A DNA stretch of 55,120 bases from Methanoregula sp. (GCF_028712425.1 NZ_JAQTQD010000018.1:1-55120); one strand, 5' to 3'. Positions 218-28,743 are shown, counted from the first letter of the stretch. Numbers and translations: made by a program. The notes: generated by a model not told the origin, from the letters alone.

Positions 218-835
218 ATGTCGTATATTAAGGATAAATTTTACAAAATATCTCCCGTCATTTTTGTCGGGTTACTCTTCGCGCTGATCCTTCTCTCCGG
301 ATGTACAGATAAATCTGAACCACCGGTAACTCCGGCTTCCACACAGACTTCGGCAGTACCTGTCACAATAGTAACGACCGGTACGCCCGGCGCATCCGTT
401 ACAATGAAAATTCCAACAACTACGAATACGCCGAAAAATCCCGCCTGTTCGTCCGGCCAGACTCTCTGCGATGGTTCCTGTGTCGATACACAGAGCGACC
501 GTCAGCACTGCGGGAAATGCGGGAATGTATGCAATGAAAGTGAACCCTGTTCAGAAGGAACATGCCTGTCGTGGACGGGATCCTGGAAAAGGGATGACGG
601 ATGGGTATACAAGCTGACACAGACTGGGACATCGGTGAGTGGGACTAATGATTATAATAATGTAATAATATCCGGTTCAACCAGCGGGAATCCCCCGAGA
701 CTTATCGGTATCCTGACTTGGCAAAAGAGTGGAAATTCTGACCCACTAACATTGGATATGGCCCCGGATGGGAAATCGTTTTTTGGCGGGATACCTGGAA
801 AAAATATTCTCACGTTTTTCCGGGAACTTGAGTGA
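218..835 (+). CDS. Cys-rich (Stig1-like) lipoprotein, paralog 1
   Basis: A 205-residue predicted lipoprotein. A short basic N-terminus and hydrophobic segment (about residues 11-28) end in a lipobox, LLSGC, so the mature protein should be anchored outside the membrane. A Thr/Pro/Ser-rich linker follows to about residue 74. Next is a Cys-rich block of about 40 residues with eight or more cysteines (CSSGQTLCDGSCVD...CGKCGNVCN...C), resembling the Stig1 or MXAN_6577-like repeat. The last 90 residues (WTGSW..., LTQTGTSVSGT, ISGSTSGNPPRL, DMAPDGKSF) look like a small beta-barrel. It is the first of four tandem paralogs. Function is unknown; a surface binding role is a guess. Confidence 0.85.
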   Translation: MSYIKDKFYKISPVIFVGLLFALILLSGCTDKSEPPVTPASTQTSAVPVTIVTTGTPGASVTMKIPTTTNTPKNPACSSGQTLCDGSCVDTQSDRQHCGKCGNVCNESEPCSEGTCLSWTGSWKRDDGWVYKLTQTGTSVSGTNDYNNVIISGSTSGNPPRLIGILTWQKSGNSDPLTLDMAPDGKSFFGGIPGKNILTFFRELE

Positions 836-1017
836 CCTGTTACTGGGGCACCTTTTTTAAATATTCTCCCGGACTTTTTATCGTGCAACCCAGGAGTAAT
901 GATTTTTAAAATCAGCGTAATTGAAAAATATCAACGGGATTAAAATTTTTCAACGGGATTAAAAAAACGTACACCATTTAAAATAAATTTGTATCTCGCA
1001 TTATTCTCTCAATAAAA
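836..1017 (+). repeat. Repeated intergenic spacer, copy B
   Basis: The spacer between lipoprotein paralogs 1 and 2. It has a T-rich 3' part (T6, then GGACTTTTTATCG) that probably terminates the upstream transcript, the block AAAATCAGCGTAATTGAAAA, and two close copies of TCAACGGGATTAAAA (931-945 and 950-964). It ends in a TATA-like AAAATAAATT before the next ATG. It aligns by eye with 1630-1814 and 3064-3235, so gene and spacer were duplicated together. Confidence 0.7.
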
Positions 1018-1629
1018 ATGTCGTCTATTATGAAAAATAAAATACTCCCTGTCATTTTTGTCGGGTTGCTCTTCGCGCTGATCTTTGTCTCTGCGTGTAC
1101 AGATACATCCCAGCCACCGGTATCCTTGACACCCGGGCAGAGTCCGGACGTGCCGGTGAATCCAAGAACCTCCGAAACTCCCGGTGCATCCGTCACAACA
1201 AAAATTCCAGCAATTACGGATACTCCGGGGAATCCATCCTGTCCCTCCGGCCAGACCCTCTGCGACGGATCCTGTGTCGATACGCAGAGCAATAGTCAGC
1301 ACTGTGGGGCATGCGGGAATGTATGTAATACCAGTGAACCCTGCTCAGAGGGAAAGTGCCTGTCGTGGACGGGATCCTGGGTCGATCAGTTTGGGTGGGA
1401 GTATGAGCTGACACAGACCGGGACATTGGTGAACGGCACCGACTCTTATAAGCAGATAATAATATCCGGTTCAACAAGCGGGAATCCTCCGAGACTAACC
1501 TGTACTTGGGTACAAGGAAGAGGTAAATCTTCTGACCCCTGTACGTTTGATATGGCCCCCGATGGGAATTCTTTCACTGGCTCATTGCTCGGATGTAATG
1601 TCTTCACCACTTATCGGCAACAGGATTGA
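1018..1629 (+). CDS. Cys-rich (Stig1-like) lipoprotein, paralog 2
   Basis: A 203-residue paralog of the gene at 218 with the same plan: hydrophobic N-terminus, lipobox VSAC, Pro/Thr/Ser linker, Cys-rich Stig1-like block (CPSGQTLCDGSCVD, CGACGNVC, CSEGKC) and a C-terminal WTGSW/LTQTGTLVNGT beta-rich domain. Here the C-terminal domain carries three further cysteines (TCTWVQ, DPCTF, LGCNV) that paralog 1 lacks, so the copies have diverged in possible disulfides. The start could also be the internal Met at 1030. Its start lies 800 bp from that of paralog 1, and it carries its own promoter copy. Confidence 0.85.
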   Translation: MSSIMKNKILPVIFVGLLFALIFVSACTDTSQPPVSLTPGQSPDVPVNPRTSETPGASVTTKIPAITDTPGNPSCPSGQTLCDGSCVDTQSNSQHCGACGNVCNTSEPCSEGKCLSWTGSWVDQFGWEYELTQTGTLVNGTDSYKQIIISGSTSGNPPRLTCTWVQGRGKSSDPCTFDMAPDGNSFTGSLLGCNVFTTYRQQD

Positions 1630-1814
1630 TTTATTACCGGGTGACCTTTTTTTTAATATCTTCTAGGCTTTTTTTATCGTGTAACTCTGGAGTACAGTTT
1701 TTTTAAAATCAGCGTAATTGAAAATTATCAACGGGATTAAAAAACACTCGTCATAATAAAAAAATCTGGACCATTTGAAATAAATATACATATATCATTA
1801 ATTTATGTACAATT
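1630..1814 (+). repeat. Repeated intergenic spacer, copy C
   Basis: The spacer between paralogs 2 and 3. It has the same blocks as 836-1017: two long T runs probably acting as terminator, AAAATCAGCGTAATTGAAAA, one TCAACGGGATTAAAA, and the TATA-like TTGAAATAAATATACAT followed by ATTAATTTATGTACAATT, which is identical in 20 bases to the start region of paralog 1. Confidence 0.7.
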
Positions 1815-2423
1815 ATGTCGTATAATGGGGAAAAATTTTACAAAATATCATCCGTCATTTTTGTCGGGTTGCTCTTCGCGTTGGTCCTTGTCACTGCGTG
1901 CACAGATACATCCCAGCCACCGGTAACTCCGGCTCTCGTACAGACATCGGCTGCGTCGGTCACAACAGTAACATCCGATGCATCCGTAACAACAAAAATT
2001 CCAGCAACTACAAATACACCGGAAAATCCATCATGTCCCTTCGGCCAGATGCTCTGCGATGGGTCCTGTATTGATACGCAGAGCAACAATAAGCATTGCG
2101 GGGCATGCGGGCATGTATGCAATGCAAGTGAACCCTGCTCAAACGGAACATGCCTGTCGTGGACGGGAACCTGGGTCCAGGAGGGAGGGTGTATATTCAA
2201 ACTCACACAGACCGGGACATCGGTGAGCGGGACCGACACGTATAAGATAAATATATCCGGTTCTACAAGCGGGAATCCTCCGAGACTAACCTGTACCTGG
2301 GCGATCGAACGTACAGATCCATGGGTTGAACCCTGTACGTTTGATATGGCCCCCGATGGGAAAACGTTTACCGGGGGGTTACACGGATATCAAATCCTCA
2401 CATATACCCGTGAAGAGGACTGA
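1815..2423 (+). CDS. Cys-rich (Stig1-like) lipoprotein, paralog 3
   Basis: A 202-residue paralog with a lipobox (VTAC), a Thr/Val/Pro linker, a Stig1-like Cys block (CPFGQMLCDGSCID, CGACGHVC, CSNGTC) and the C-terminal WTGTW...LTQTGTSVSGT...DMAPDGKTF domain. Extra cysteines in that domain (GGCIF, TCTW, EPCTF) resemble paralog 2. Its upstream sequence is nearly identical to that of paralog 1. The next paralog starts only 43 bp after its stop, so 3 and 4 may be cotranscribed. Confidence 0.85.
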   Translation: MSYNGEKFYKISSVIFVGLLFALVLVTACTDTSQPPVTPALVQTSAASVTTVTSDASVTTKIPATTNTPENPSCPFGQMLCDGSCIDTQSNNKHCGACGHVCNASEPCSNGTCLSWTGTWVQEGGCIFKLTQTGTSVSGTDTYKINISGSTSGNPPRLTCTWAIERTDPWVEPCTFDMAPDGKTFTGGLHGYQILTYTREED

Positions 2424-2466
2424 CTTGTAACCGGGGGCGGATTCCTCTATCCTGAAGTTGTGCAAC

Positions 2467-3063
2467 ATGAAAAACACAATATCACACATCCTTGCTGTCG
2501 GGTTACTCTTCGCACTGATCCTTGTTACTGCGTGCACAGATACATCCCAGTCACCGGTATCACCGCCTCCCGTGCAGACTTCGACAGTACCGGTCACAAC
2601 AGTAACATCCGGAACTCCTGATGCATCCGTCACAACAATAATTCCAGCCACCACGATTACGGCAGGAAAACCATCATGTCCGTCCGGCCAGATTCTCTGT
2701 GACGGGTCATGTATCGATACACAGAGCAACAGTAAACATTGCGGGGCATGCGGGCATGTATGCAATACCAGTGAACCGTGTTCGGAGGGAACGTGCCTGT
2801 CATGGGCAGGATCCTGGGCCGAAGAGTCGTCCGGGTGGAAATTTGAGCTGACACAGATCGGGACATCGGTGAACGGCACTGACTATTATAATCAGGAAAT
2901 TTTTTATGGTTCAACAAGTGGGAATCCCCCAAGACTTACTGGTACCTGGGTGTCACATGGTAAACGTTCTTACCCCTTTACATTCGAAATGTCCCCGGAT
3001 GGGAAATCGTTCTCTGGCGCATTGCTCGGAATGAATACCCTCACCTATATTCGGCCGGACTAA
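2467..3063 (+). CDS. Cys-rich (Stig1-like) lipoprotein, paralog 4
   Basis: A 198-residue paralog with lipobox VTAC, a Thr/Val/Pro linker, the Stig1-like Cys block (CPSGQILCDGSCID, CGACGHVC, CSEGTC) and a C-terminal WAGSW...LTQIGTSVNGT...EMSPDGKSF domain without extra cysteines, as in paralog 1. I use the ATG at 2467; an in-frame TTG at 2458 is a poorer start. Unlike the others it lacks the promoter spacer. Only the first ~15 bp of the spacer (GTAACCGGGGGC) remain before it, which looks like a deletion joining it to paralog 3. Confidence 0.83.
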   Translation: MKNTISHILAVGLLFALILVTACTDTSQSPVSPPPVQTSTVPVTTVTSGTPDASVTTIIPATTITAGKPSCPSGQILCDGSCIDTQSNSKHCGACGHVCNTSEPCSEGTCLSWAGSWAEESSGWKFELTQIGTSVNGTDYYNQEIFYGSTSGNPPRLTGTWVSHGKRSYPFTFEMSPDGKSFSGALLGMNTLTYIRPD

Positions 3064-3235: not shown

Positions 3236-3395
3236 ATGGTTTGGCAGGAATATCCGCTGTGTGAATGAATCACGAGACTTCGGATATGATGACTGTCAGA
3301 AAAAGTGGGACGGGTTCACCAAAGTTTGCACACTCGATGAACCCGCGCCTGCCAAGAGGCAGAAGTGTGATTGTCGTAACAGGATTTATGATTAA
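3210..3395 (+). pseudogene. Cys-containing coding remnant upstream of the peptide gene
   Basis: The frame ending at the TAA at 3393-3395 is open back into the repeat and reads like real protein from about 3228. Recognisable pieces are EWFGRNIRCVNES, DFGYDDCQKKWDGF, TKVCTLDEPAPAK and QKCDCRNRIYD, with five cysteines. No ATG lies in this frame and the only start-like codon is GTG 3261, without a ribosome binding site. An ATG at 3236 in another frame gives ten codons and a stop. I read it as the 3' end of a lost gene, or a gene with a frameshifted start. The family is not recognised. Confidence 0.35.
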
Positions 3396-3434
3396 CTCCT
3401 CCTGCCCCGGAAAAAGACAAAATGGAGGTAAAAA

Positions 3435-3575
3435 ATGGAAACCCTTGGAGTCATTGAAGATGTATCGCCCATGGCCAACTGCAATTGTGCAGCTAATTGC
3501 AAACCCTGCACCCCAGCACTCCCTTTTTCAAGTATTGAGAATACGAACAAGGCGATCGACTACGTTGACGCATAA
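3435..3575 (+). CDS. Cys-rich RiPP precursor peptide (46 aa)
   Basis: A 46-residue open frame preceded by a strong ribosome binding site (TGGAGGT, six bases before the ATG). The N-terminal 15 residues are acidic and Cys-free and look like a leader (METLGVIEDV...). They are followed by CNCAANCKPC, four cysteines at positions 16, 18, 22 and 25, then a Cys-free tail rich in Thr, Ser, Asn and Asp (TPALPFSS...AIDYVDA). It lies 51 bp before two radical SAM/SPASM genes and an ABC exporter on the same strand. This is the arrangement of radical SAM-modified peptides such as sactipeptides and the Cys-rich clostridial peptides processed by CcpM-type maturases. Modification and secretion are inferred from context; the cysteines would be the expected thioether donors. 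Confidence 0.75.
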   Translation: METLGVIEDVSPMANCNCAANCKPCTPALPFSSIENTNKAIDYVDA

Positions 3576-3626
3576 TATGCGGGTAACTGCCGATCCCTAA
3601 TCCTAACTATTTTTTGGAGGAAAAAC

Positions 3627-5099
3627 ATGGAATTTGAAAGCCTGTCCGGAAACACCTATTATTATGATAATCAAATCGGGATCGCTTTTCCTTCGAACCC
3701 CCTCATGAAAAAACTAATTTCAGCAAATCCCCGGCAAATGGAGGAGATTGCTGCAACCGAAAAAAACAAGGAAGATCTTCTCTTTTACTCCCGGTTTTTG
3801 GAAAAGCTCAACAGGATCCGTCCGAAACAGGGAGGTGTTAAACCGAGGTCCCCCCTCAAAGCAGATGACATCAGGCCGCTGATAATACGGGAGGGACTGC
3901 AACAGATCATCTTAGGGGTAACCGAAAACTGCAACATGAGATGTCGGTATTGTATTTACTCTGAAGCATATTCCCTCTCCCGGAACCGGACAACGAAAAA
4001 AATGGATCTCCCCACAGCGAAAATGGCATTGGATTATTATGTATCATTGTTCCTGGAAGGTCTGGAGTACAACCCAACACGGCTGCCGTCAGTGGCGTTC
4101 TATGGCGGAGAACCCCTAATGAATTTTGATCTGATAAAAAAATGCGTAAAATATCTCGAAACCACGTATCCTGAACTGGTTTTTCGCTTCTCGTTCACCA
4201 CGAACGGGACCCTCCTGACCGAGGAAAAAGATGATTTCCTGCTGGAACATGGTTTTTTTGTTAATTTTAGCATTGACGGGCCGGAAGAAGAGCACAACCG
4301 GAAACGTGTGTACCCGGGAGACAAAGGCTCGTTTTCCGATGTGATGAAAAATGCGCAACGGTTCATGAAAAAGAAGTCTGACAGATGCGGCGCAATGTGT
4401 GTATACGATTATAAGACCAATCCGTTCGACCTCGATGCATTCTTCAGCACCCCTGATGTTCCCCGATTGGGGAATATTACTTTCCCCAATGACAGGAACG
4501 GATGCACCTATTACGATCAGTTCTCTCGTGAGGATATCGCAGCGTTCCGAAAAACCATGACTGAGGCATTCTCGTATTATCTTGAAAATGATCCGTATGA
4601 TGAGAATGCACATGCATTCTTCTACCGGATCTTCGCGGAATCGGCAAGCCGGATCCTCTATTCACCCTCAGTCCTGAATTCCCGTGAGGGGATGGTCTTC
4701 CCCTACTCCGGGCCATGTATTCCCGGGAAGAAGATCTTTGTCGATTGCACGGGAAAATTCCATCTGTGCGAACGCGTTAATGAGTACTTCCCGATCGGGA
4801 ATGTCAGGACCGGGTTGGACTTCGAGAATATTGCCAACCTGATAAACAGGTATAATGAACATCTGGATTCCTGTGGGTCTTGCAGCATCAACAGGGCATG
4901 CGTAAAATGTTATACCAGTTTTACCTTGGATGGATTGTTTGAGAACACCTCAACCGTTTGTAAATCTGACGAAAATCAGAAAAAAATTGAATTGTCCCGG
5001 GTATTCAGCATCGGGGAGACCTTCCCGGATCTGCTCAACATCAAGGTCAAAGACCATTATACCTGGCTTTCCGGTGAATCTTCGGCATCGGGTGATTAA
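3627..5099 (+). CDS. Radical SAM/SPASM peptide maturase 1
   Basis: A 490-residue radical SAM protein preceded by a TTGGAGG ribosome binding site. Residues 1-90 form an N-terminal region that may bind the peptide leader. The radical SAM cluster motif CNMRCRYC lies at 102-109 (CxxxCxxC), followed by the GGEP motif near 160-163. The C-terminal SPASM region holds further cysteines (about 364, 374, 381, 416, 419, 425, 428, 445), enough for two auxiliary iron-sulfur clusters as in sactionine- and thioether-forming enzymes. Its gene follows the Cys-rich peptide gene and overlaps the next one (TAATGATG). The likely substrate is the peptide at 3435. The overall plan resembles Cys-rich peptide maturases of the CcpM or SCIFF type; the exact subfamily was not tested. 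Confidence 0.9.
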   Translation: MEFESLSGNTYYYDNQIGIAFPSNPLMKKLISANPRQMEEIAATEKNKEDLLFYSRFLEKLNRIRPKQGGVKPRSPLKADDIRPLIIREGLQQIILGVTENCNMRCRYCIYSEAYSLSRNRTTKKMDLPTAKMALDYYVSLFLEGLEYNPTRLPSVAFYGGEPLMNFDLIKKCVKYLETTYPELVFRFSFTTNGTLLTEEKDDFLLEHGFFVNFSIDGPEEEHNRKRVYPGDKGSFSDVMKNAQRFMKKKSDRCGAMCVYDYKTNPFDLDAFFSTPDVPRLGNITFPNDRNGCTYYDQFSREDIAAFRKTMTEAFSYYLENDPYDENAHAFFYRIFAESASRILYSPSVLNSREGMVFPYSGPCIPGKKIFVDCTGKFHLCERVNEYFPIGNVRTGLDFENIANLINRYNEHLDSCGSCSINRACVKCYTSFTLDGLFENTSTVCKSDENQKKIELSRVFSIGETFPDLLNIKVKDHYTWLSGESSASGD

Positions 5100-6256
5100 T
5101 GATGTACTTCAGGCTGAACCCGGAATGTTATTACATCAAAGGCGCAAAGAATGGCGCGATCTATGATCTCATTGAGGGAAATGTTTATGCCCTTACGTCC
5201 GATGAATCAAGGATGATTGAAGCATGTGAGAAGAACGGGGAAGCTGACCCGCAGGATCCCTTCCTCCGGGATTTGAAGCACCGTGTTGTCGGGAACTTTT
5301 ATCCAACAAAGGTGTTTATCGAAAAGATCCGGCTGGGGTCCCCGATTGCAGAGTACCAGGAAGGAAATCCCCCCGTGATCAGCGTTGCGGTCCTGGAGAT
5401 CGGGAACGAATGCGACCGGTCCTGCTGGTACTGCGGGCAGTCGGGGATCTCGAGGAGCAGGGGCTGCCTTGGCTGCAATATCTGGGCTGAAGACGGGACC
5501 CCGGTAGGTATGGACCGGTGGAAAGAGCTCATCGACGAGCTCAGCCGCCTCCACTGCATGTCGATCCTGGTAAAAGGCGGCGACCTGACACGGGACTGGG
5601 AAAAGACCCGGGAAATCCTTGAATATGCAACGGAACATTGTAAAAAAGTAATCCTCATCGGCCACCGGGAACACTTTTCAGAAGACAAACTCGCGTACCT
5701 GGAGAATAAGGTAACCCTCATCCTGCAGACCGATGATCTGTCCGGGATCGGGGACCGCCACTCCTATCTGTTTCCCGTGGACTATGCAAAATCACCGGAA
5801 TTATCCGGAGATCTGCCTAAAAACGTCATGATAGATATGGTCTCCCGGACATTCACGCCCCTGCAACCCGGCTCGCCCCTGAACGCAAAAAAGAAAATTC
5901 CCCGTACAAATCTGTTCACGTTCACCCATCACAACCGGCTGCATCCCTGCCTTGCCAACAGCGTTACGATTGCCTGGAACGGGGAAGTCCTGCCCTGCCC
6001 CATGATGCGGGACCATTCTCTTGGCAATATCAACAACCGGAAATTATGGACCTTTTTCAGGAATACCGAGGACAGTATCCAGAAGAAATACTGGAACCTG
6101 AGCCTTAATGACCTGGATAAATGCAGCGCATGTGAATTCAGGTACAGTTGTTCCGACTGCAGGGCACTTGAAACAGCAAAGACCGGCGATTTGAAGAGAA
6201 AAGTGTTGTGCGATTATGATCCCTCAGAAGGAACGTGGCAGCAACCAGCTGCTTAA
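5099..6256 (+). CDS. Radical SAM/SPASM-type peptide maturation protein 2
   Basis: A 385-residue second radical SAM protein, translationally coupled to the first (start at 5099 or 5102 within TAATGATG). Its N-terminus (PECYYIKGAKNGAIYDLIEG) resembles the leader-recognition region seen in peptide-modifying SPASM proteins. The cluster motif CDRSCWYC is at 105-112, with two extra cysteines (CLGC, 123-126). The C-terminal part has HPCLANSVTIAWNGEVLPCP and CSACEFRYSCSDC, a SPASM-like ligand set. The core is short (GGD where GGEP is usual). In clostridial Cys-rich peptide loci a second such protein accompanies the maturase. It may be a second modifying enzyme or a partner of the first. Confidence 0.85.
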   Translation: MMYFRLNPECYYIKGAKNGAIYDLIEGNVYALTSDESRMIEACEKNGEADPQDPFLRDLKHRVVGNFYPTKVFIEKIRLGSPIAEYQEGNPPVISVAVLEIGNECDRSCWYCGQSGISRSRGCLGCNIWAEDGTPVGMDRWKELIDELSRLHCMSILVKGGDLTRDWEKTREILEYATEHCKKVILIGHREHFSEDKLAYLENKVTLILQTDDLSGIGDRHSYLFPVDYAKSPELSGDLPKNVMIDMVSRTFTPLQPGSPLNAKKKIPRTNLFTFTHHNRLHPCLANSVTIAWNGEVLPCPMMRDHSLGNINNRKLWTFFRNTEDSIQKKYWNLSLNDLDKCSACEFRYSCSDCRALETAKTGDLKRKVLCDYDPSEGTWQQPAA

Positions 6257-7934
6257 GGGACTCGTCCAGTCCCATCTTTTTACAATCATTGCGTTGATAC
6301 TCCTGAGTTTGTTCGGGACCCTCTTCTCTCTTGCCACTCCCCTGATCCTGGGCCGGTTGATTGATTCGGTCCTGATTGGGAAAGACACGTCCCTGCTTGT
6401 ACCGATCATCCTCGGAATGTCCGGATTATTTCTGTTTTCCGCACTGTCGGGTTATCTTTCAAACATTATCCGGGGCCGGCTGAACCTGGTACTTTTCAAA
6501 GAACTTGCACACGATCTTTTCGGGGCGGTCCAGGAGGCCTCGTTATCGGATCTCCAGAATATAAAAACCGGCGACCTGCTCACAAGGACGATCGGGAATA
6601 CCTATGCGGCAGTCAGTACCGTTTCGTCGATTATCCCCCAGATTGTGGTTACGATAGTTGGTTTTATCCTCCCCTTCACGATAATGTTTTCACTAAATCC
6701 GAATCTGGCGGTAATCATATGTTGCCCCATCGTCCTGTTTATCATCTCGTCCGTGTATTACGGAAACAAGGTAAAAACATACCAGCGGGATTCGCTGAAT
6801 TCCGCTGCCTGTATGAACTCTTTCTTAAAAGAAACGTATTCGATCGTGCCGCTGACAAAAGTGTTTGTACTGGAGCAGTGGGTTTGCGATAAATTTGACG
6901 GCTACCTGGAAAAATACACTGCCGCGTCGTTAGATGTTGTCAGGGTATCATCGATGAGTTCTGCGGTGGGCATGGTAATTTACGGCATTCCAACGTTACT
7001 GGTCCTTGTATTCGGCAGCATGGAAGTCATCAGCGGATTGATGAGTCTCGGAACATTTACTGCGTTCATGGGATATATCGGTTTGTTCTATTCACCCATC
7101 CAGCTGTTGTCGATGTACTGGACAACGTATAAGAGTTCCCAGGCATCATTTGACCGGATAGGCGAGGTTTTCTCGCTGAAAATGGAACTGTGGGGGAAAA
7201 ATGCCCTTCCCACACCCGTGGAAAACATCGAATTCCATTCTGTCTGCTTTTCCTATGGCCCGAGGGCCGTTCTCAAAGATTTCAGCGCCACCTTTGTACA
7301 GGGGAGGAATTATCTTATCGGTGACAACGGCTCCGGAAAATCAACGCTCATCAGATTGTTATGCGGGTTATACCGTCCGGACAAGGGATCGATTATCATC
7401 GATGGCCGGGATCTTGCATCCCTGAGCCGGGAATCTCTCCGTAAATCTGTTTCCGTTGTCTTTGCAGACGCCCTGGTTTTTGACGGTACAATCTACGAGA
7501 ACATTCTCATCGGCAATCTGTCGGCATCCCGTGAAGATGTTGAGCACGCGGCAAAAAAAGCAGAACTTGACGAATTTATCATGAGACTCCCCAAAAAGTA
7601 TGAAACCGGGGTTGGCGAGTCCGGCCTGAACCTGTCCAGCGGGGAGAAACAGAAAATTGCCCTGGCCCGGGTTATCCTGCGGGATTCGCCGGTAATAATA
7701 TTCGATGAATTCACGAGGTCCGTAGATATTGAATCAAAAAAATCCATCTTCTCCGTTATCAGGAAAATGAACGATAAAATTATTATCATCATCACGCATG
7801 ACCCCCAGGAAATTGAAAGTAGCTGCAATATTGTGGAGATCGAAAAGCATAATTTTCTTGCTCCAATCCCGGAAAAATTCCCTGAACATGAACCAGCCGC
7901 CGGCATGGTGACGGTATCGACTGGACTATCATAA
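6216..7934 (+). CDS. ABC exporter (fused membrane and ATPase domains) of the peptide locus
   Basis: A 572-residue half-transporter. Residues 20-310 hold about six membrane helices typical of type IV exporters (ABCB/MsbA-like). The nucleotide-binding domain has Walker A GDNGSGKST (369-377), signature LSSGEKQ (473-479), Walker B VIIFDE (493-498) and H-loop ITHD. The usual Q-loop glutamine appears to be Ala (VVFADALVF). No N-terminal C39 peptidase domain is present, so leader removal would need another protease. The start overlaps the previous gene by 41 bp, indicating coupling. It probably exports the modified peptide. Confidence 0.88.
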   Translation: MIPQKERGSNQLLKGLVQSHLFTIIALILLSLFGTLFSLATPLILGRLIDSVLIGKDTSLLVPIILGMSGLFLFSALSGYLSNIIRGRLNLVLFKELAHDLFGAVQEASLSDLQNIKTGDLLTRTIGNTYAAVSTVSSIIPQIVVTIVGFILPFTIMFSLNPNLAVIICCPIVLFIISSVYYGNKVKTYQRDSLNSAACMNSFLKETYSIVPLTKVFVLEQWVCDKFDGYLEKYTAASLDVVRVSSMSSAVGMVIYGIPTLLVLVFGSMEVISGLMSLGTFTAFMGYIGLFYSPIQLLSMYWTTYKSSQASFDRIGEVFSLKMELWGKNALPTPVENIEFHSVCFSYGPRAVLKDFSATFVQGRNYLIGDNGSGKSTLIRLLCGLYRPDKGSIIIDGRDLASLSRESLRKSVSVVFADALVFDGTIYENILIGNLSASREDVEHAAKKAELDEFIMRLPKKYETGVGESGLNLSSGEKQKIALARVILRDSPVIIFDEFTRSVDIESKKSIFSVIRKMNDKIIIIITHDPQEIESSCNIVEIEKHNFLAPIPEKFPEHEPAAGMVTVSTGLS

Positions 7935-18145: not shown

Positions 18146-18475
18146 GAGGCCGGTTAAACAAGTCCCGTCATCAATGGTCGGAAGATGGAGGATTGGCGTG
18201 TGTTGGAACAGAAGGGTAAGGAGATGTTGTAGAAATTGACGATGAAGATTAGAACGATTTAATTTAATGATGTTAAATCCCATTAGATGAAGGATACCCT
18301 GTAGATCAATAAGAATTATAATTTTCACACCGCTCGCTAATCATTAAAAATACCGATGATTTGTAAGCATTAAAAAGTAGAAGTCTCACTCAAATGATTC
18401 AGAAGAAATTAATTATACAATCTTATATCATCGTTCCATTGTACTATTTGGATAAGTAACTGATTGGAGATCATA

Positions 18476-19627
18476 ATGCTAAAAACAGAATTTTATTCGA
18501 ATCAAACCGTTGCTTTTGATCCCATCCCTAGTTTGATTAGTTGCGATTGGAACTTTCCTGGACAACGAAATGGTGAAGGTCTGTACAATCTGCATCCCTA
18601 TCCAGCAAAATTTATTTCACAAATTCCGAAAACGTTAATTAAAACTTTCAATCTTCCGAAAGATACTGCGATCCTCGATCCGTTTTGTGGTTATGGAACT
18701 ACATTAATTGCTGCACAATCTTTAGGTTACTCATCCATTGGCGTTGATTTGAATCCAATTGCATGTCTCATTGCACGAGTCTCGACTCAAGATTGTTCAC
18801 AAAATATTGTGGACTCTGCGACTCGTTGCATCCAGAAAGCAAAAGCCACTGAAGGATTAACATCAATTCCTTACATACCGAATCTGGATCATTGGTTTAA
18901 AAAACCAATTCAGATTGCAGTTTTTGGATTAATCACGGCTATCAATGAAATTGAAGAAGAAAATCTCAGAGATGCATTACGGTTAGCATTGTCGAGTATA
19001 CTAGTCCGAGTTTCAAATCAAGATAGTGATACCCGATATGCTGCAGTAAATAAACCCGTGGAAAAAGATGATGTTTATTCAATTTTTTCCCGCGTTTGCC
19101 GACAATATATGCAGGTTTTACACTCATCGCAAGAAGCGTACCCAAATGCGTTCGTCATAAATAAAAATATTTTAGAAGTTACTCCATCGGATATACCTAG
19201 AAAAGTTGGATTAGTTATTTCATCACCACCATATCCGGCTGCTTACGAATACTGGCTTTACCATAAATATCGGATGTGGTGGTTAGGATTTGATCCACTA
19301 TCAGTAAAAGAGCATGAAATTGGTGCGAGATCACATTTCTTTAAAAAAGATCATCACACCCCAAAAGACTTCGAAAACCAAATGCGGAAAGTCTTCAAGC
19401 TCCTATCGAAAATTTGCACTCCCAATTCTTACGCATGTTTCGTTGTTGGGAATTCAAAAATTCATGGAGAAATAATCGATAATACTGAATTATTGATTTC
19501 CGCTGCAGAGCAAGAAAATTTTGAACTTCGGACAATACTTCCACGGAATATTCCATCAAATCGGAAGTCGTTCAACCTATCAAATTCAAGAATTCTAACC
19601 GAGAATATTATTGTTCTTCAGAAGTGA
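18476..19627 (+). CDS. DNA methyltransferase 1 (N4/N6 amino-type) of the R-M system
   Basis: A 383-residue amino-methyltransferase. The SAM-binding motif DPFCGYGTT is at 68-76 and the catalytic motif SSPPY at 249-253. The N-terminal NLHPYPAKFI is typical of this class. The ATG at 18476 is preferred to a TTG at 18464 because GGAG lies six bases before it. It overlaps the next methyltransferase gene by 4 bp. Base composition is much more AT-rich than the uvrA side, suggesting acquisition. With the second methylase and the nuclease it would protect both strands of an asymmetric recognition site. Confidence 0.9.
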   Translation: MLKTEFYSNQTVAFDPIPSLISCDWNFPGQRNGEGLYNLHPYPAKFISQIPKTLIKTFNLPKDTAILDPFCGYGTTLIAAQSLGYSSIGVDLNPIACLIARVSTQDCSQNIVDSATRCIQKAKATEGLTSIPYIPNLDHWFKKPIQIAVFGLITAINEIEEENLRDALRLALSSILVRVSNQDSDTRYAAVNKPVEKDDVYSIFSRVCRQYMQVLHSSQEAYPNAFVINKNILEVTPSDIPRKVGLVISSPPYPAAYEYWLYHKYRMWWLGFDPLSVKEHEIGARSHFFKKDHHTPKDFENQMRKVFKLLSKICTPNSYACFVVGNSKIHGEIIDNTELLISAAEQENFELRTILPRNIPSNRKSFNLSNSRILTENIIVLQK

Positions 19628-21147
19628 TTTTCTTGAAAAAGCCGATTAGTGCTTATCTAAAGTGGCATGATTATCGGTATTATCCGTACGAAAAAATTTT
19701 TGCTTTTCGAGAAGTAGAATCCTTACCCGGTTTTATAAATTATACACCAACCGAAGACGGAATCATAGTAAATTTTGATACGGCGATCCCAGATAAACTA
19801 AATAGACTGGTTTATTTTTCTAAATATTCCATCGGAGATGGACCCCTCACGAAAACATTCCAAGCTCTTTTGGAGAATGGATATACAAAAAATAACACCA
19901 AACGCCAAGCCACTCGATATCTCGTTCATGGACTTCATGAGTACAAAGGAAAATTTAATCCTCAGGTTGTACGATGCATTCTCAACTGGTACAATTTACC
20001 TGATGATTCTCAGATCGTTGATCCATTTTGCGGAAGCGGGACGTCAATTATTGAATCTGGACTCGCAGGTTTTGAAAGTATCGGATGGGATTTAAATCCG
20101 TTCGCTGTTTATCTCACAAATGCGAAAATTCTTGCATTAAAAACAGACTTAGATATTTTAAAAGAGCAAGCAAAAAAAATATTTTCGCATGTGCCCAACG
20201 AAAAGAAAATTTTGTGTGAAAAAAGTGGAAGACTTGAATATCTAGAGAAATGGTTTCCCAAAGATACTCTAGAAAAAATTGAACAATACAGATCAATTAT
20301 TGAAAATGAAACAGACCAAAACGAATCCTTCTTTAAGATCATTTTGAGTGATTTATTGAGAGATTATTCACTTCAAGAGCCTTCAGATCTCAGAATCCGA
20401 CGGAGAAGAAGTCCTTTTCCAAATATTTCCATTGAAAAATCCTTCAAAATCTTGCTCCATAAACAATTGGACGAATTAGAACGAACAATAGAGATCACTA
20501 GCGGCAAAAATTTCAAAACTGTTGCCTTCCAAGCAGATGGACGTTTTGTTAATGAGGTCTCGTCACGATCTCCAACAAAATTACGCGCGAATTTTGCTAT
20601 TACAAGTCCTCCATACTCTGCCGCTCTACCGTATATCGATACTCAAAGACTTAGTTTGATTTGGCTAAATTTAATCAATCCCGATGAAATAACCACGACT
20701 GAAAAAACCCTGATTGGAAGCCGTGATGCTGCGGAGAATATTTTGCGTGATTTGGAAGACCAGATTTTGATCAATTCATCAAATCTTCCAGATTCTATTC
20801 AGTTACTTTGTGCCAATTTGCAAGAGCGGTTAAGCGCTGGAGACGGTTTTAGAAAGCGTGCGGTTCCAGGGCTACTATATCGATATTTTTCGGATATGAA
20901 ACAAACCTTTCACACCGTTCGTTCAATTATGAAACCGGGTGGAGTGTATACCCTAATCGTAGGAACTAACCGGACAACTATTGGCGGTCAAACCGAAAAC
21001 ATAAACACGCCGGAATTACTTTCTGAAGTCGCAGTCTCGTCAAAATGGAAAAACATGGAATTATTACCCTTGGAAACTTACAAACGATATGGTATGCATG
21101 CTGCAAATGCAGTTCAAGGCGAAACTTTGTTGGTTTTGAAAAAATGA
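19624..21147 (+). CDS. DNA methyltransferase 2 (N4/N6 amino-type) of the R-M system
   Basis: A 507-residue amino-methyltransferase with a GTG start within the stop of the previous gene (GTGA). The SAM motif DPFCGSGT is near 133-140 and the catalytic motif TSPPY near 329-333. The HGLHEYKGKFNPQVVRCIL segment before motif I matches the HPYPAKF element of the first enzyme. A roughly 120-residue insertion between the motifs likely holds target-recognition parts. It ends in ATGA, overlapping the nuclease start. Two methylases with one nuclease is typical of type IIS systems with asymmetric sites. Confidence 0.88.
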   Translation: MIFLKKPISAYLKWHDYRYYPYEKIFAFREVESLPGFINYTPTEDGIIVNFDTAIPDKLNRLVYFSKYSIGDGPLTKTFQALLENGYTKNNTKRQATRYLVHGLHEYKGKFNPQVVRCILNWYNLPDDSQIVDPFCGSGTSIIESGLAGFESIGWDLNPFAVYLTNAKILALKTDLDILKEQAKKIFSHVPNEKKILCEKSGRLEYLEKWFPKDTLEKIEQYRSIIENETDQNESFFKIILSDLLRDYSLQEPSDLRIRRRRSPFPNISIEKSFKILLHKQLDELERTIEITSGKNFKTVAFQADGRFVNEVSSRSPTKLRANFAITSPPYSAALPYIDTQRLSLIWLNLINPDEITTTEKTLIGSRDAAENILRDLEDQILINSSNLPDSIQLLCANLQERLSAGDGFRKRAVPGLLYRYFSDMKQTFHTVRSIMKPGGVYTLIVGTNRTTIGGQTENINTPELLSEVAVSSKWKNMELLPLETYKRYGMHAANAVQGETLLVLKK

Positions 21148-22250
21148 GTGAATTTTGTTTACAGCCGGATGTTTATCGGACAGGATCATGCAGAAATTTG
21201 TTAGGTCTGCTTGAAGACATCTGGATTAATCGGGCACCGTTAGGAGAGGGAACATTCTATATTGTATCAGGTTTTGGCAATTATAATGGGGGAGTAAGAT
21301 TCTTTTCAACATTAAAACGCCATGTGGATTCAGGAGGTAGGGTCGAATGTTTTTTTGGTGCGGGTACTTCTCAACGTCTTACAAGCTATCAGTTGGTGGA
21401 AAAATTACTCTCTTGTGGTTGTGATGTTCATCTAATCAATAGAAAACAAATTTTCCATACGAAGTGCTATGGGACCGGCAATTCTGGTGATCGTTTAATA
21501 GTTACATCGGGAAATTTTACTGCTAATGGAATGGCTCATAATGTCGAATCTGCGCTTTTCCTAGATTATGATTTAACCCGTCAAATTCAATTCCGATGGT
21601 CGGAATTCGCAGATTCAATACTTCGACAGAAATGGGAGATTTACACTCCTTCCTTATCTGATCTTGAAAGTCCTGCTTGGAAAGTTGTTTACGATGAAAG
21701 AGAGGAGCGCATTAAAATCGATGATAGTCAAGCAGTTAGTATGGTAGTGACTCTTAGTCACGCAGATACAGCTAGAATAAATGCCCCTCTCGGTTCAAAA
21801 GCAGGTTTGGGAACACAATATTTCTGGTTAAGCAGAGATGCGTATGATTTTTTTCCACCATTAACAATCCCAAATAAGCGAGGGATCAAAGATACTTATT
21901 CGTGCCATATAAATTTACATTATAATGACCTTGGGTTTGTCGATCAATCGACAGTTACGTTCGAAGCAGGAAATAACGTTGATTTTCGTTTGAGAACCTC
22001 AAAATATCGATATACTCATGTTGCCGATAGGGGAGATCTTGCGGTTATAAGTCGCATATCAGAATATGATTATGAGATTCGCATTGTCAGACAAGGCTCA
22101 GATCGATATAATGCATTATCTCCATTTGCGACCACATTTATTGGAAATAGAGATAAGAGATTAGGATTCATTCCAAACGAAAAATTGGAATCAATTTTGG
22201 GTATCCAACTCCCAACGCGGAAACAATTTGCTCAACTTCCCAGAGCTTAA
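21144..22250 (+). CDS. PLD-family restriction endonuclease (BfiI/NgoFVII-like)
   Basis: A 368-residue protein with a phospholipase D-type nuclease domain. HTK is at 105-107 and GNFTANG follows at 123-129, the HxK...N signature of a single-motif PLD nuclease that works as a dimer without metal. The C-terminal half (after about residue 200) is beta-rich and probably binds DNA, as in BfiI. I start at ATG 21144 (ATGA overlap with the methylase), not at the longer upstream Met. The combination strongly suggests a restriction enzyme; the site is unknown. Confidence 0.8.
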   Translation: MSEFCLQPDVYRTGSCRNLLGLLEDIWINRAPLGEGTFYIVSGFGNYNGGVRFFSTLKRHVDSGGRVECFFGAGTSQRLTSYQLVEKLLSCGCDVHLINRKQIFHTKCYGTGNSGDRLIVTSGNFTANGMAHNVESALFLDYDLTRQIQFRWSEFADSILRQKWEIYTPSLSDLESPAWKVVYDEREERIKIDDSQAVSMVVTLSHADTARINAPLGSKAGLGTQYFWLSRDAYDFFPPLTIPNKRGIKDTYSCHINLHYNDLGFVDQSTVTFEAGNNVDFRLRTSKYRYTHVADRGDLAVISRISEYDYEIRIVRQGSDRYNALSPFATTFIGNRDKRLGFIPNEKLESILGIQLPTRKQFAQLPRA

Positions 22251-27849: not shown

Positions 27850-28743
27850 GTGGATAATTCTATAATGATCGAGTATCTGGTCCTGCTTTCCTGTGCCGGT
27901 TTTCTGGCATTCCTGATACCCGGTCGCCACCGCAGGTATGCTGCCATCATCGGATGGGTCTTCATTGTCCTGACGCTGTTCGCGTCGCTTCCCGAGTATT
28001 TCCGGGAGAACAATTTCATGTACCCGCTGGTTGCGGCTATGTCGGTGCCGTTTCTCGCGATCACGGTCAAGTATCTCCTGAACAACGATGAGCGGGCAAT
28101 GCACCTTTCCCGGGCGGCAGCAGTGGCGTTTCTCATCTATGCGCCGTTCGGGTTCACCCAGGTGCCGCTCTTTGCCTGGCTCGGGGACCAGCTCATCTCC
28201 CTTGTTGTCTCGCAGGTGCTCTGGATCCTCGATCTCCTCAACTTCACGGTCTCGCTCACCTGCATGGACCCGGTGACCGAACGGGCACTGGACCCGTCAG
28301 CATGCGCCGGGCTTCTGCGGGACACCATCACAAGGAACGGGTACAGCGTCCAGATCATCCTTGGCTGCACCGGCATCCAGAGCATCGCGATCCTGCTCGG
28401 GGTCGCAGCGGCAGTCCCGACAACGCTCCGGCAGAAGTTATTCGCGTTCCTCATCGTTGCCCCGACAATCTATATCCTCAACCTGCTGCGCAACGCCTTC
28501 GTAATCATGGCCTATACGGACCAGTGGTTCCCGTACTGGCCCGAGGTGGCAAGCAACGGCGAGATGGGATACGAGAGTTTCTTCTGGGCTCACAACGTGA
28601 TCGCCGAGCTTCTTGCTCTTGTCATCCTGGTGATGATCGCCTACTCGCTTTTCACCCTCATTCCCAGCCTGGGGAAATTCGCCGATGACCTTTACCAGAT
28701 GTACACCGGGGAATTCCGGAAAGCGTTCTGCAAGGGCAGATAA
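27850..28743 (+). CDS. artA: Archaeosortase A
   Basis: A 297-residue polytopic membrane protein (about eight helices) of the exosortase/archaeosortase family. The catalytic triad is visible: Cys in LGCTGIQSIA, Arg in LLRNAFVIMA and His in FWAHNVIAEL. ArtA processes surface proteins with PGF-CTERM sorting signals and couples removal of the C-terminal helix to lipid attachment. The start is GTG 27850 or ATG 27865; neither has a clear ribosome binding site. No PGF-CTERM substrate was seen in this window. Confidence 0.92.
   Translation: MDNSIMIEYLVLLSCAGFLAFLIPGRHRRYAAIIGWVFIVLTLFASLPEYFRENNFMYPLVAAMSVPFLAITVKYLLNNDERAMHLSRAAAVAFLIYAPFGFTQVPLFAWLGDQLISLVVSQVLWILDLLNFTVSLTCMDPVTERALDPSACAGLLRDTITRNGYSVQIILGCTGIQSIAILLGVAAAVPTTLRQKLFAFLIVAPTIYILNLLRNAFVIMAYTDQWFPYWPEVASNGEMGYESFFWAHNVIAELLALVILVMIAYSLFTLIPSLGKFADDLYQMYTGEFRKAFCKGR

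Follow-up and report, generated by a model that had tools for sequence, protein, structure and literature searches.

A probable paired-radical-SAM sactipeptide-type peptide operon in Methanoregula with relatives in archaea and Clostridia

Background

Thuricin Z (huazacin) has been proven to be a sactipeptide, and its synthesis involves two radical S-adenosylmethionine (SAM) enzymes (PMC8172795), ThzC and ThzD, which form the same bond (PMC8172795) and whose product contains four thioethers, C16-D26, C12-T30, C8-Y34 and C4-H38 (PMC8172795). In the related layout of thuricin CD the own SAM activity of one enzyme, TrnD, is dispensable (PMC12093266). For Archaea, a 2025 survey predicted radical-SAM clusters for ribosomally synthesized and post-translationally modified peptides (RiPPs) across the domain, where only haloarchaeal lanthipeptides had been characterised previously (PMC12144867). 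Here we describe an operon in a stretch of DNA from Methanoregula sp. (NZ_JAQTQD010000018.1; the window is this whole stretch of 55,120 nucleotides (nt), and its own genome is referred to as G000). According to our analysis it probably belongs to an archaeal RiPP branch among the sactipeptide systems that use paired radical SAM enzymes, with a thuricin CD/Z layout and new CxC-rich cores.

The operon and its gene order

The precursor, two radical SAM/SPASM enzymes (rSAM1 and rSAM2) and an ATP-binding cassette (ABC) exporter follow each other on one strand; lengths are in amino acids (aa).

3424..3429, plus strand: Shine-Dalgarno sequence GGAGGT of the precursor gene, read from the sequence
3435..3575, plus strand: precursor peptide gene, 46 aa, METLGVIEDVSPMANCNCAANCKPCTPALPFSSIENTNKAIDYVDA; relatives at six other rSAM-linked archaeal loci and a paralog, G000:C44
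3435..3479, plus strand: Cys-free acidic leader, METLGVIEDVSPMAN; the same 15 residues in the paralog, with a different core
3480..3509, plus strand: Cys cluster C16-N-C18-AAN-C22-KP-C25; the paralog has the same four Cys at the same spacing
3510..3572, plus strand: Cys-free 21-residue tail, read from the sequence; by geometry it would form the acceptor side of a nested hairpin
3627..5099, plus strand: rSAM1, radical SAM/SPASM maturase, 490 aa, CNMRCRYC, PF04055
3930..3953, plus strand: rSAM1 CxxxCxxC (C102, C106, C109), invariant in 10/10 homologs
4716..4961, plus strand: rSAM1 SPASM region (C364, C381, C416, C419, C425, C428, C445), all seven invariant in 10/10
5099..6256, plus strand: rSAM2, partner radical SAM/SPASM protein, 385 aa, CDRSCWYC; start at 5099 or 5102 possible
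5411..5476, plus strand: rSAM2 CxxxCxxC and an extra CxxC (C104, C108, C111, C122, C125, counted from 5102), intact in 10/11 homologs
5948..6211, plus strand: rSAM2 SPASM region (C283, C299, C341, C344, C350, C353, C370), invariant in 11/11
6216..7934, plus strand: exporter with fused transmembrane and nucleotide-binding domains, 572 aa, PF00664 and PF00005

The preliminary description of this DNA had proposed a small gene with an excellent ribosome binding site, two overlapping radical SAM genes with extra SPASM-type cysteines and a fused ABC exporter overlapping the second of them, and all of this is borne out. The 46-aa open reading frame (ORF) with CNCAANCKPC and its strong Shine-Dalgarno sequence is confirmed at the base level, and the Cys-free acidic leader said to precede the Cys motif has 15 residues and a charge of -3. 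The start of rSAM2 and the stop of rSAM1 share 1 nt, each enzyme has seven SPASM Cys, and the exporter gene, with ABC_membrane and ABC_tran domains, overlaps rSAM2 by 41 nt.

Two distinct radical SAM/SPASM enzymes thus stand together with a precursor and an ABC exporter. Thuricin Z/huazacin (ThzA, ThzC, ThzD, ABC) shares with the operon this order of precursor(s), two distant radical SAM/SPASM enzymes and then the exporter, as well as the N-terminal Cys half and the Cys-free tail of the peptide; the archaeal precursor differs in its CxC-rich cluster, in place of regularly spaced Cys, and in its N/Q/Y/W-containing tail, and it fails the huazacin model NF037972. Thuricin CD (TrnA/B, TrnC/TrnD) likewise combines two radical SAM enzymes of low similarity with precursor and ABC transporter (PMC8172795, PMC12093266), but the archaeal operon has one precursor, and the likeness to TrnC/TrnD described here is one of arrangement.

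Conservation in archaea

Our samples comprised 39 genomes of the genus, 232 of the order and 393 of the phylum, the last being only a part of this archaeal phylum. A complete operon was found in G029 (L031; precursor METIQTEDSIVRGPYCGACICMCGNPAQQPLQSTNFNKRTNTPYW), with identities of 44% for rSAM1, 49% for rSAM2 and 55% for the exporter, and it occupies the same chromosomal site as that of the window, since the neighbouring NEW3-domain and ABC-2 permease genes are the same for both. In G012 a precursor, MSFDLYLVPYTAYGKTCICNCWCSCFPIINPSANQGVNVQGYSEGSMGNLNFN, is followed by rSAM1 up to the contig end. An rSAM2 profile search over the order matched G000 and G029 only; at the phylum level it added G610, G726 (two copies, a and b) and G692 (two copies, a and b). 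G726 and G692 belong to another family of the phylum, and a contig-end copy to a third one.

The four G726 and G692 copies have an intact upstream flank, and in each a Cys-cluster ORF stands just before rSAM1: MEVFKGEGYGISIETPAACDCRCYIRCKGSTYPNATAWQDWQAHLTQ, MEVFEGETVAGTGENAPAPCCLSCGCSGSLGYNQMNAQWNAGNW (the start codon of which is our choice), MEVFYGEGAEESGQEEEMACCFTACKGGVWVEILSSRPDYTA and MEEFSKANQDGGTPEACYCNWCSCSGGNAQSVFYGQDYQTNPSKYW. Precursor, rSAM1 and rSAM2 keep their order in G029 and in both copies of G726 and of G692. Exporter orthologs follow rSAM2 in G610, G726b, G692a and G692b, while in G726a a transposase-like block takes the exporter's place. The preliminary description would have been contradicted if the small ORF were not conserved beside homologous radical SAM pairs; this did not occur, the order being kept in G029, G726 and G692, and the full four-gene order, which it proposed to look for in other methanogens, is present in G029, one G726 copy and both G692 copies.

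In all seven archaeal loci with an intact flank a Cys-cluster ORF of 42-53 aa lies directly upstream of rSAM1. The seven precursors share one layout, namely a Cys-free leader, a core whose N-terminal part holds a cluster of 3-5 Cys, and a Cys-free tail which could act as acceptor. Control ORFs of such a kind (ATG start, 35-60 aa, at least 3 Cys within 10 residues) numbered 31 in 384 kb of strand, or about 0.02 expected per 300 nt, and at this rate an occurrence in seven of seven by chance is implausible. Assuming an inner loop like that of thuricin Z, the tail in each of the seven has the length that a nested hairpin requires; in the window precursor the outermost acceptor would then be residue 44 of 46, which is a geometrical expectation and not a proof.

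The second precursor of the same genome, G000:C44, lies at a contig end and begins with 15 residues identical to those of the window precursor. Its Cys cluster, CGCYLHCKSC, retains the four Cys and their spacing with 5/6 spacer residues changed. This paralog may be degenerate, because its tail passes into sequence resembling repeats and holds a fifth Cys, deviating from the Cys-free-tail layout.

The two enzymes and their bacterial counterparts

Pfam finds the radical SAM domain PF04055 in rSAM1 (4e-17). Its best family matches are CcpM (TIGR04068, 231 bits, equivalog cut-off 500) and RumMC (NF035951, 199.5 bits, equivalog cut-off 720), both of which score above the likewise sub-cut-off matches to PapB ranthipeptide, SCIFF and cyclophane models; for the SCIFF maturase TIGR03974 the score is 91.8 bits against a cut-off of 425, and the substrate has four Cys where six are needed. 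The nearest solved structure is CteB (5wgg), a thioether-forming SCIFF maturase. With every score under its curated cut-off we rejected CcpM, RumMC and SCIFF as identities of rSAM1; the nearest model is the two-enzyme arrangement of thuricin CD/Z. CcpM and RumMC act on Cys-rich or sactipeptide substrates, as proposed for rSAM1, but the archaeal system also encodes a further radical SAM/SPASM protein that belongs to another family.

In rSAM2 the SPASM domain PF13186 is matched at 3e-6 and the radical-SAM domain at 13 bits only, below the cut-off. Its best family match, through the C-terminal SPASM part, is the grasp-with-spasm protein GwsS (TIGR04193, 79 bits), a model matched by all 10 rSAM2 homologs tested; the cut-off is 175 bits, and we rejected this identity. 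ATP-grasp domains are absent among the operon genes, and rSAM2, unlike GwsS, keeps CxxxCxxC and CxxC. The extra CxxC lies about 11 residues past CxxxCxxC in ten of the 11 rSAM2 proteins, and this conservation suggests that it has a real role and leaves room for chemistry of rSAM2's own. CxxxCxxC is broken in one Clostridiales locus only, L001, where the operon and the SPASM Cys persist; this homolog (L001 9486-10637) offers a natural test of the partner's need for SAM chemistry.

Similar gene sets with other ABC layouts occur in Clostridia: G344, G232/L001, G805 and Ruminococcus albus. The set of G344 reads precursor (MCAEICTATCSILGLSGCIVGCLAAAGVTSAPAGLASVGVAAVSATTSSAIAS), rSAM1, rSAM2, ABC ATPase and permease. 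A plasmid search found on pRUMAL03 of R. albus 7 a homologous enzyme pair preceded by two peptide genes with a huazacin-family annotation, and these pass NF037972 (50.1 bits, cut-off 35). The identity to this pair, the closest annotated bacterial counterpart of the archaeal enzymes, is about 31-32% for rSAM1 and 27% over the full length for rSAM2. The pair is followed by a gene for an ABC ATPase and by another gene that occupies the place of the permease, whereas the archaeal operon has one fused exporter. In unrooted trees the archaeal and bacterial enzymes form separate groups.

Radical SAM matches in two other archaeal genomes, G033 and G046, were excluded from the rSAM1/rSAM2 family, being SCIFF-like or nif11-like. 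In G033 (L045 7084-9858) a radical SAM/SPASM enzyme of SCIFF-like type, with 317 bits against a cut-off of 425, is encoded beside a C13 (caspase-like) peptidase, and the repeated Cys-rich C-terminal part of this peptidase might be a substrate. In G046 (L044 7649-10744), an archaeon of the same family, two nif11-like radical SAM maturases are encoded side by side and score 381 and 373 bits at a cut-off of 518.7.

Proposed mechanism and alternatives

The genes, their order and conservation, the cysteine motifs and the homology to the huazacin-associated pair are direct observations, and from them we infer the thioethers with S-C-alpha bonds, their connectivity, complex formation, export and leader removal. 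In the mechanism that we propose, the acidic leader (about 15 residues) of the 46-aa precursor would be bound by an rSAM1-rSAM2 complex. rSAM1 would generate the 5'-deoxyadenosyl radical and, with its SPASM clusters, join the thiol groups of the Cys cluster to backbone carbons within the Cys-free tail, so that the peptide forms a nested hairpin with up to four thioethers of -2 Da each. rSAM2 would be the partner subunit, as TrnD is for TrnC; the invariance of the rSAM1 motifs (10/10) and of the rSAM2 SPASM Cys (11/11), together with the loss of CxxxCxxC in L001, is consistent with such a model. The fused exporter would pump the peptide out. As it has no C39 peptidase domain (Pfam finds only ABC_membrane and ABC_tran), a separate protease would remove the leader, and a subtilase (PF00082) of about 1260 aa, whose gene immediately follows that of the exporter at the G726b and G692b loci (L171 11786-15607, L173 5026-8793), is a candidate for this function. 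The earlier idea that a modified Cys-rich peptide is made and exported gains support from the conserved order and the huazacin-associated pair, the thioether itself being presumed.

Several observations weigh against the sactipeptide assignment. None of the NCBIfam models matched the eight archaeal precursors, including the huazacin family NF037972 at its cut-off of 35 bits. The CxC spacing and N/Q/Y/W-containing tails of the archaeal cores are unlike bacterial sactipeptides, with Cys every 3-4 residues and A/G/V/S/T tails, and therefore the type of link could differ. Immunity and protease genes do not adjoin the window operon, and the distribution of the operon in the genus is patchy (3/39 genomes). 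AlphaFold2 models of the two enzymes, from two-row alignments, had predicted local distance difference test scores (pLDDT) of 34.5 and 40.6 and were too poor to be used.

A different bond would arise if rSAM1 joined Cys to a beta or gamma carbon, as in ranthipeptides, or made carbon-carbon links. Its sub-cut-off matches to PapB, SCIFF and cyclophane models and the closeness of CteB speak for such chemistry; we nevertheless consider it unlikely, as CcpM and RumMC outscore PapB and SCIFF and the closest annotated bacterial pair adjoins huazacin-family precursors. One may also suggest that the labour is divided, with rSAM1 making thioethers and rSAM2 using a cluster of its own and the extra CxxC for a second reaction; nearly all homologs keep CxxxCxxC and this CxxC, which would be superfluous in a mere scaffold. 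The broken CxxxCxxC of L001 beside retained SPASM Cys and operon, the dispensable SAM activity of TrnD (PMC12093266) and the identical bond made by ThzC and ThzD (PMC8172795) render this rather doubtful, though worth keeping in mind. That the Cys peptide is no RiPP precursor at all but a metal- or Fe-S-binding helper of rSAM1 and rSAM2, or an ORF that arose by chance, seems to us highly improbable: CxCxxxCxxC could bind metal, but the precursors are alike in layout and varied in core sequence and Cys number (3-5), an exporter belongs to the operon, the chance expectation is about 0.02 per locus, and in R. albus huazacin-family precursors hold the same position.

If the sactipeptide-type reading is right, the two-enzyme arrangement of thuricin Z/CD would extend to archaea with new core sequences. 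The operon provides a concrete, conserved and testable archaeal case, with defined precursors and an enzyme pair that has homologs in archaea and in the cultured R. albus 7, and the role of the second radical SAM subunit can be approached by comparing lineages that keep its CxxxCxxC with those that lose it.

A structured leader element upstream of the operon

A conserved element precedes the precursor gene:

3304..3408, plus strand: leader element with helices P1 GGGTTCA/TGAACCC and P2 AGGCA../..TGCC and an inner hairpin; 78 bits with our covariance model R1

It stands upstream in the three first-found rSAM-linked loci of the genus, better conserved than the proteins, and no Rfam family matched it above the gathering threshold. 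The covariance model finds about 110 copies in 23/39 genomes of the genus, 13 of them in the window's own genome (copies listed: window 3304-3408; G000:C41, C35, C23, C18 and C44; L046-L154). A strict pattern had confined the element to the genus, which we rejected, because the model finds scattered copies in 10/34 genera of the order. Among 73 copies inspected, 61 are followed, at no more than 200 nt, by an ORF that begins like a signal peptide (typically VLLALLLAAMAMVPMVSA), compared with one on the other side, and RiPP precursors make up four of the 12 exceptions. Copies mostly lie 25-45 nt before genes of signal-peptide proteins.

Across 76 distinct copies all helices covary: 21/22 pairs change on both sides with pairing kept, and the covariation measures exceed 500/500 shuffles and every slid control, in an alignment which was fitted to the covariance model. 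Before fitting, 18 copies gave a weaker signal in the same direction. Single-sequence folding was not better than shuffles (z -0.69), and so the evidence for the structure is the covariation only. We read the element as a leader RNA, or possibly a DNA-level operator, of an exoproteome regulon which the peptide operon has joined; through it the production of the peptide would be linked to the exported proteome, and the element is itself a candidate regulatory RNA. Taken together with the operon, it would be logical to suggest, tentatively and at somewhat less than an even chance, a separate archaeal class of sactipeptide-like CxC-rich peptides that methanogens make by a two-enzyme complex, the second subunit of which has the extra CxxC, under a hitherto undescribed structured leader RNA also controlling the signal-peptide secretome.

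In six copies (L050, L054, L055, L056, L062, L065) the P1 loop resembles the reverse complement of the usual loop with the palindromic stem arms unchanged, as if the loop were inverted. A 7-Cys peptide behind the copy G029:C7 (L126) was discarded as a RiPP, being a signal peptide misread out of frame at an A-run. A sigma-70 promoter and terminator scan gave chance level, the sigma-70 consensus not being applicable to archaea.

Neighbouring genes

Upstream of the operon (window ~220-3063) is a tandem array of four lipoprotein genes of about 200 aa with about 75% DNA identity and a STIG1-like Cys-rich stretch (PF04885), and three similar genes precede the second precursor on G000:C44. We rejected the array as part of the system, as it is absent beside the G029 operon. 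Positions 27850-28743 of the window encode a polytopic membrane protein without a Pfam match, which we take to resemble archaeosortase. A restriction-modification locus at 18464-22250 combines two type II DNA methyltransferases with a BfiI-type metal-independent (PLD) restriction enzyme.
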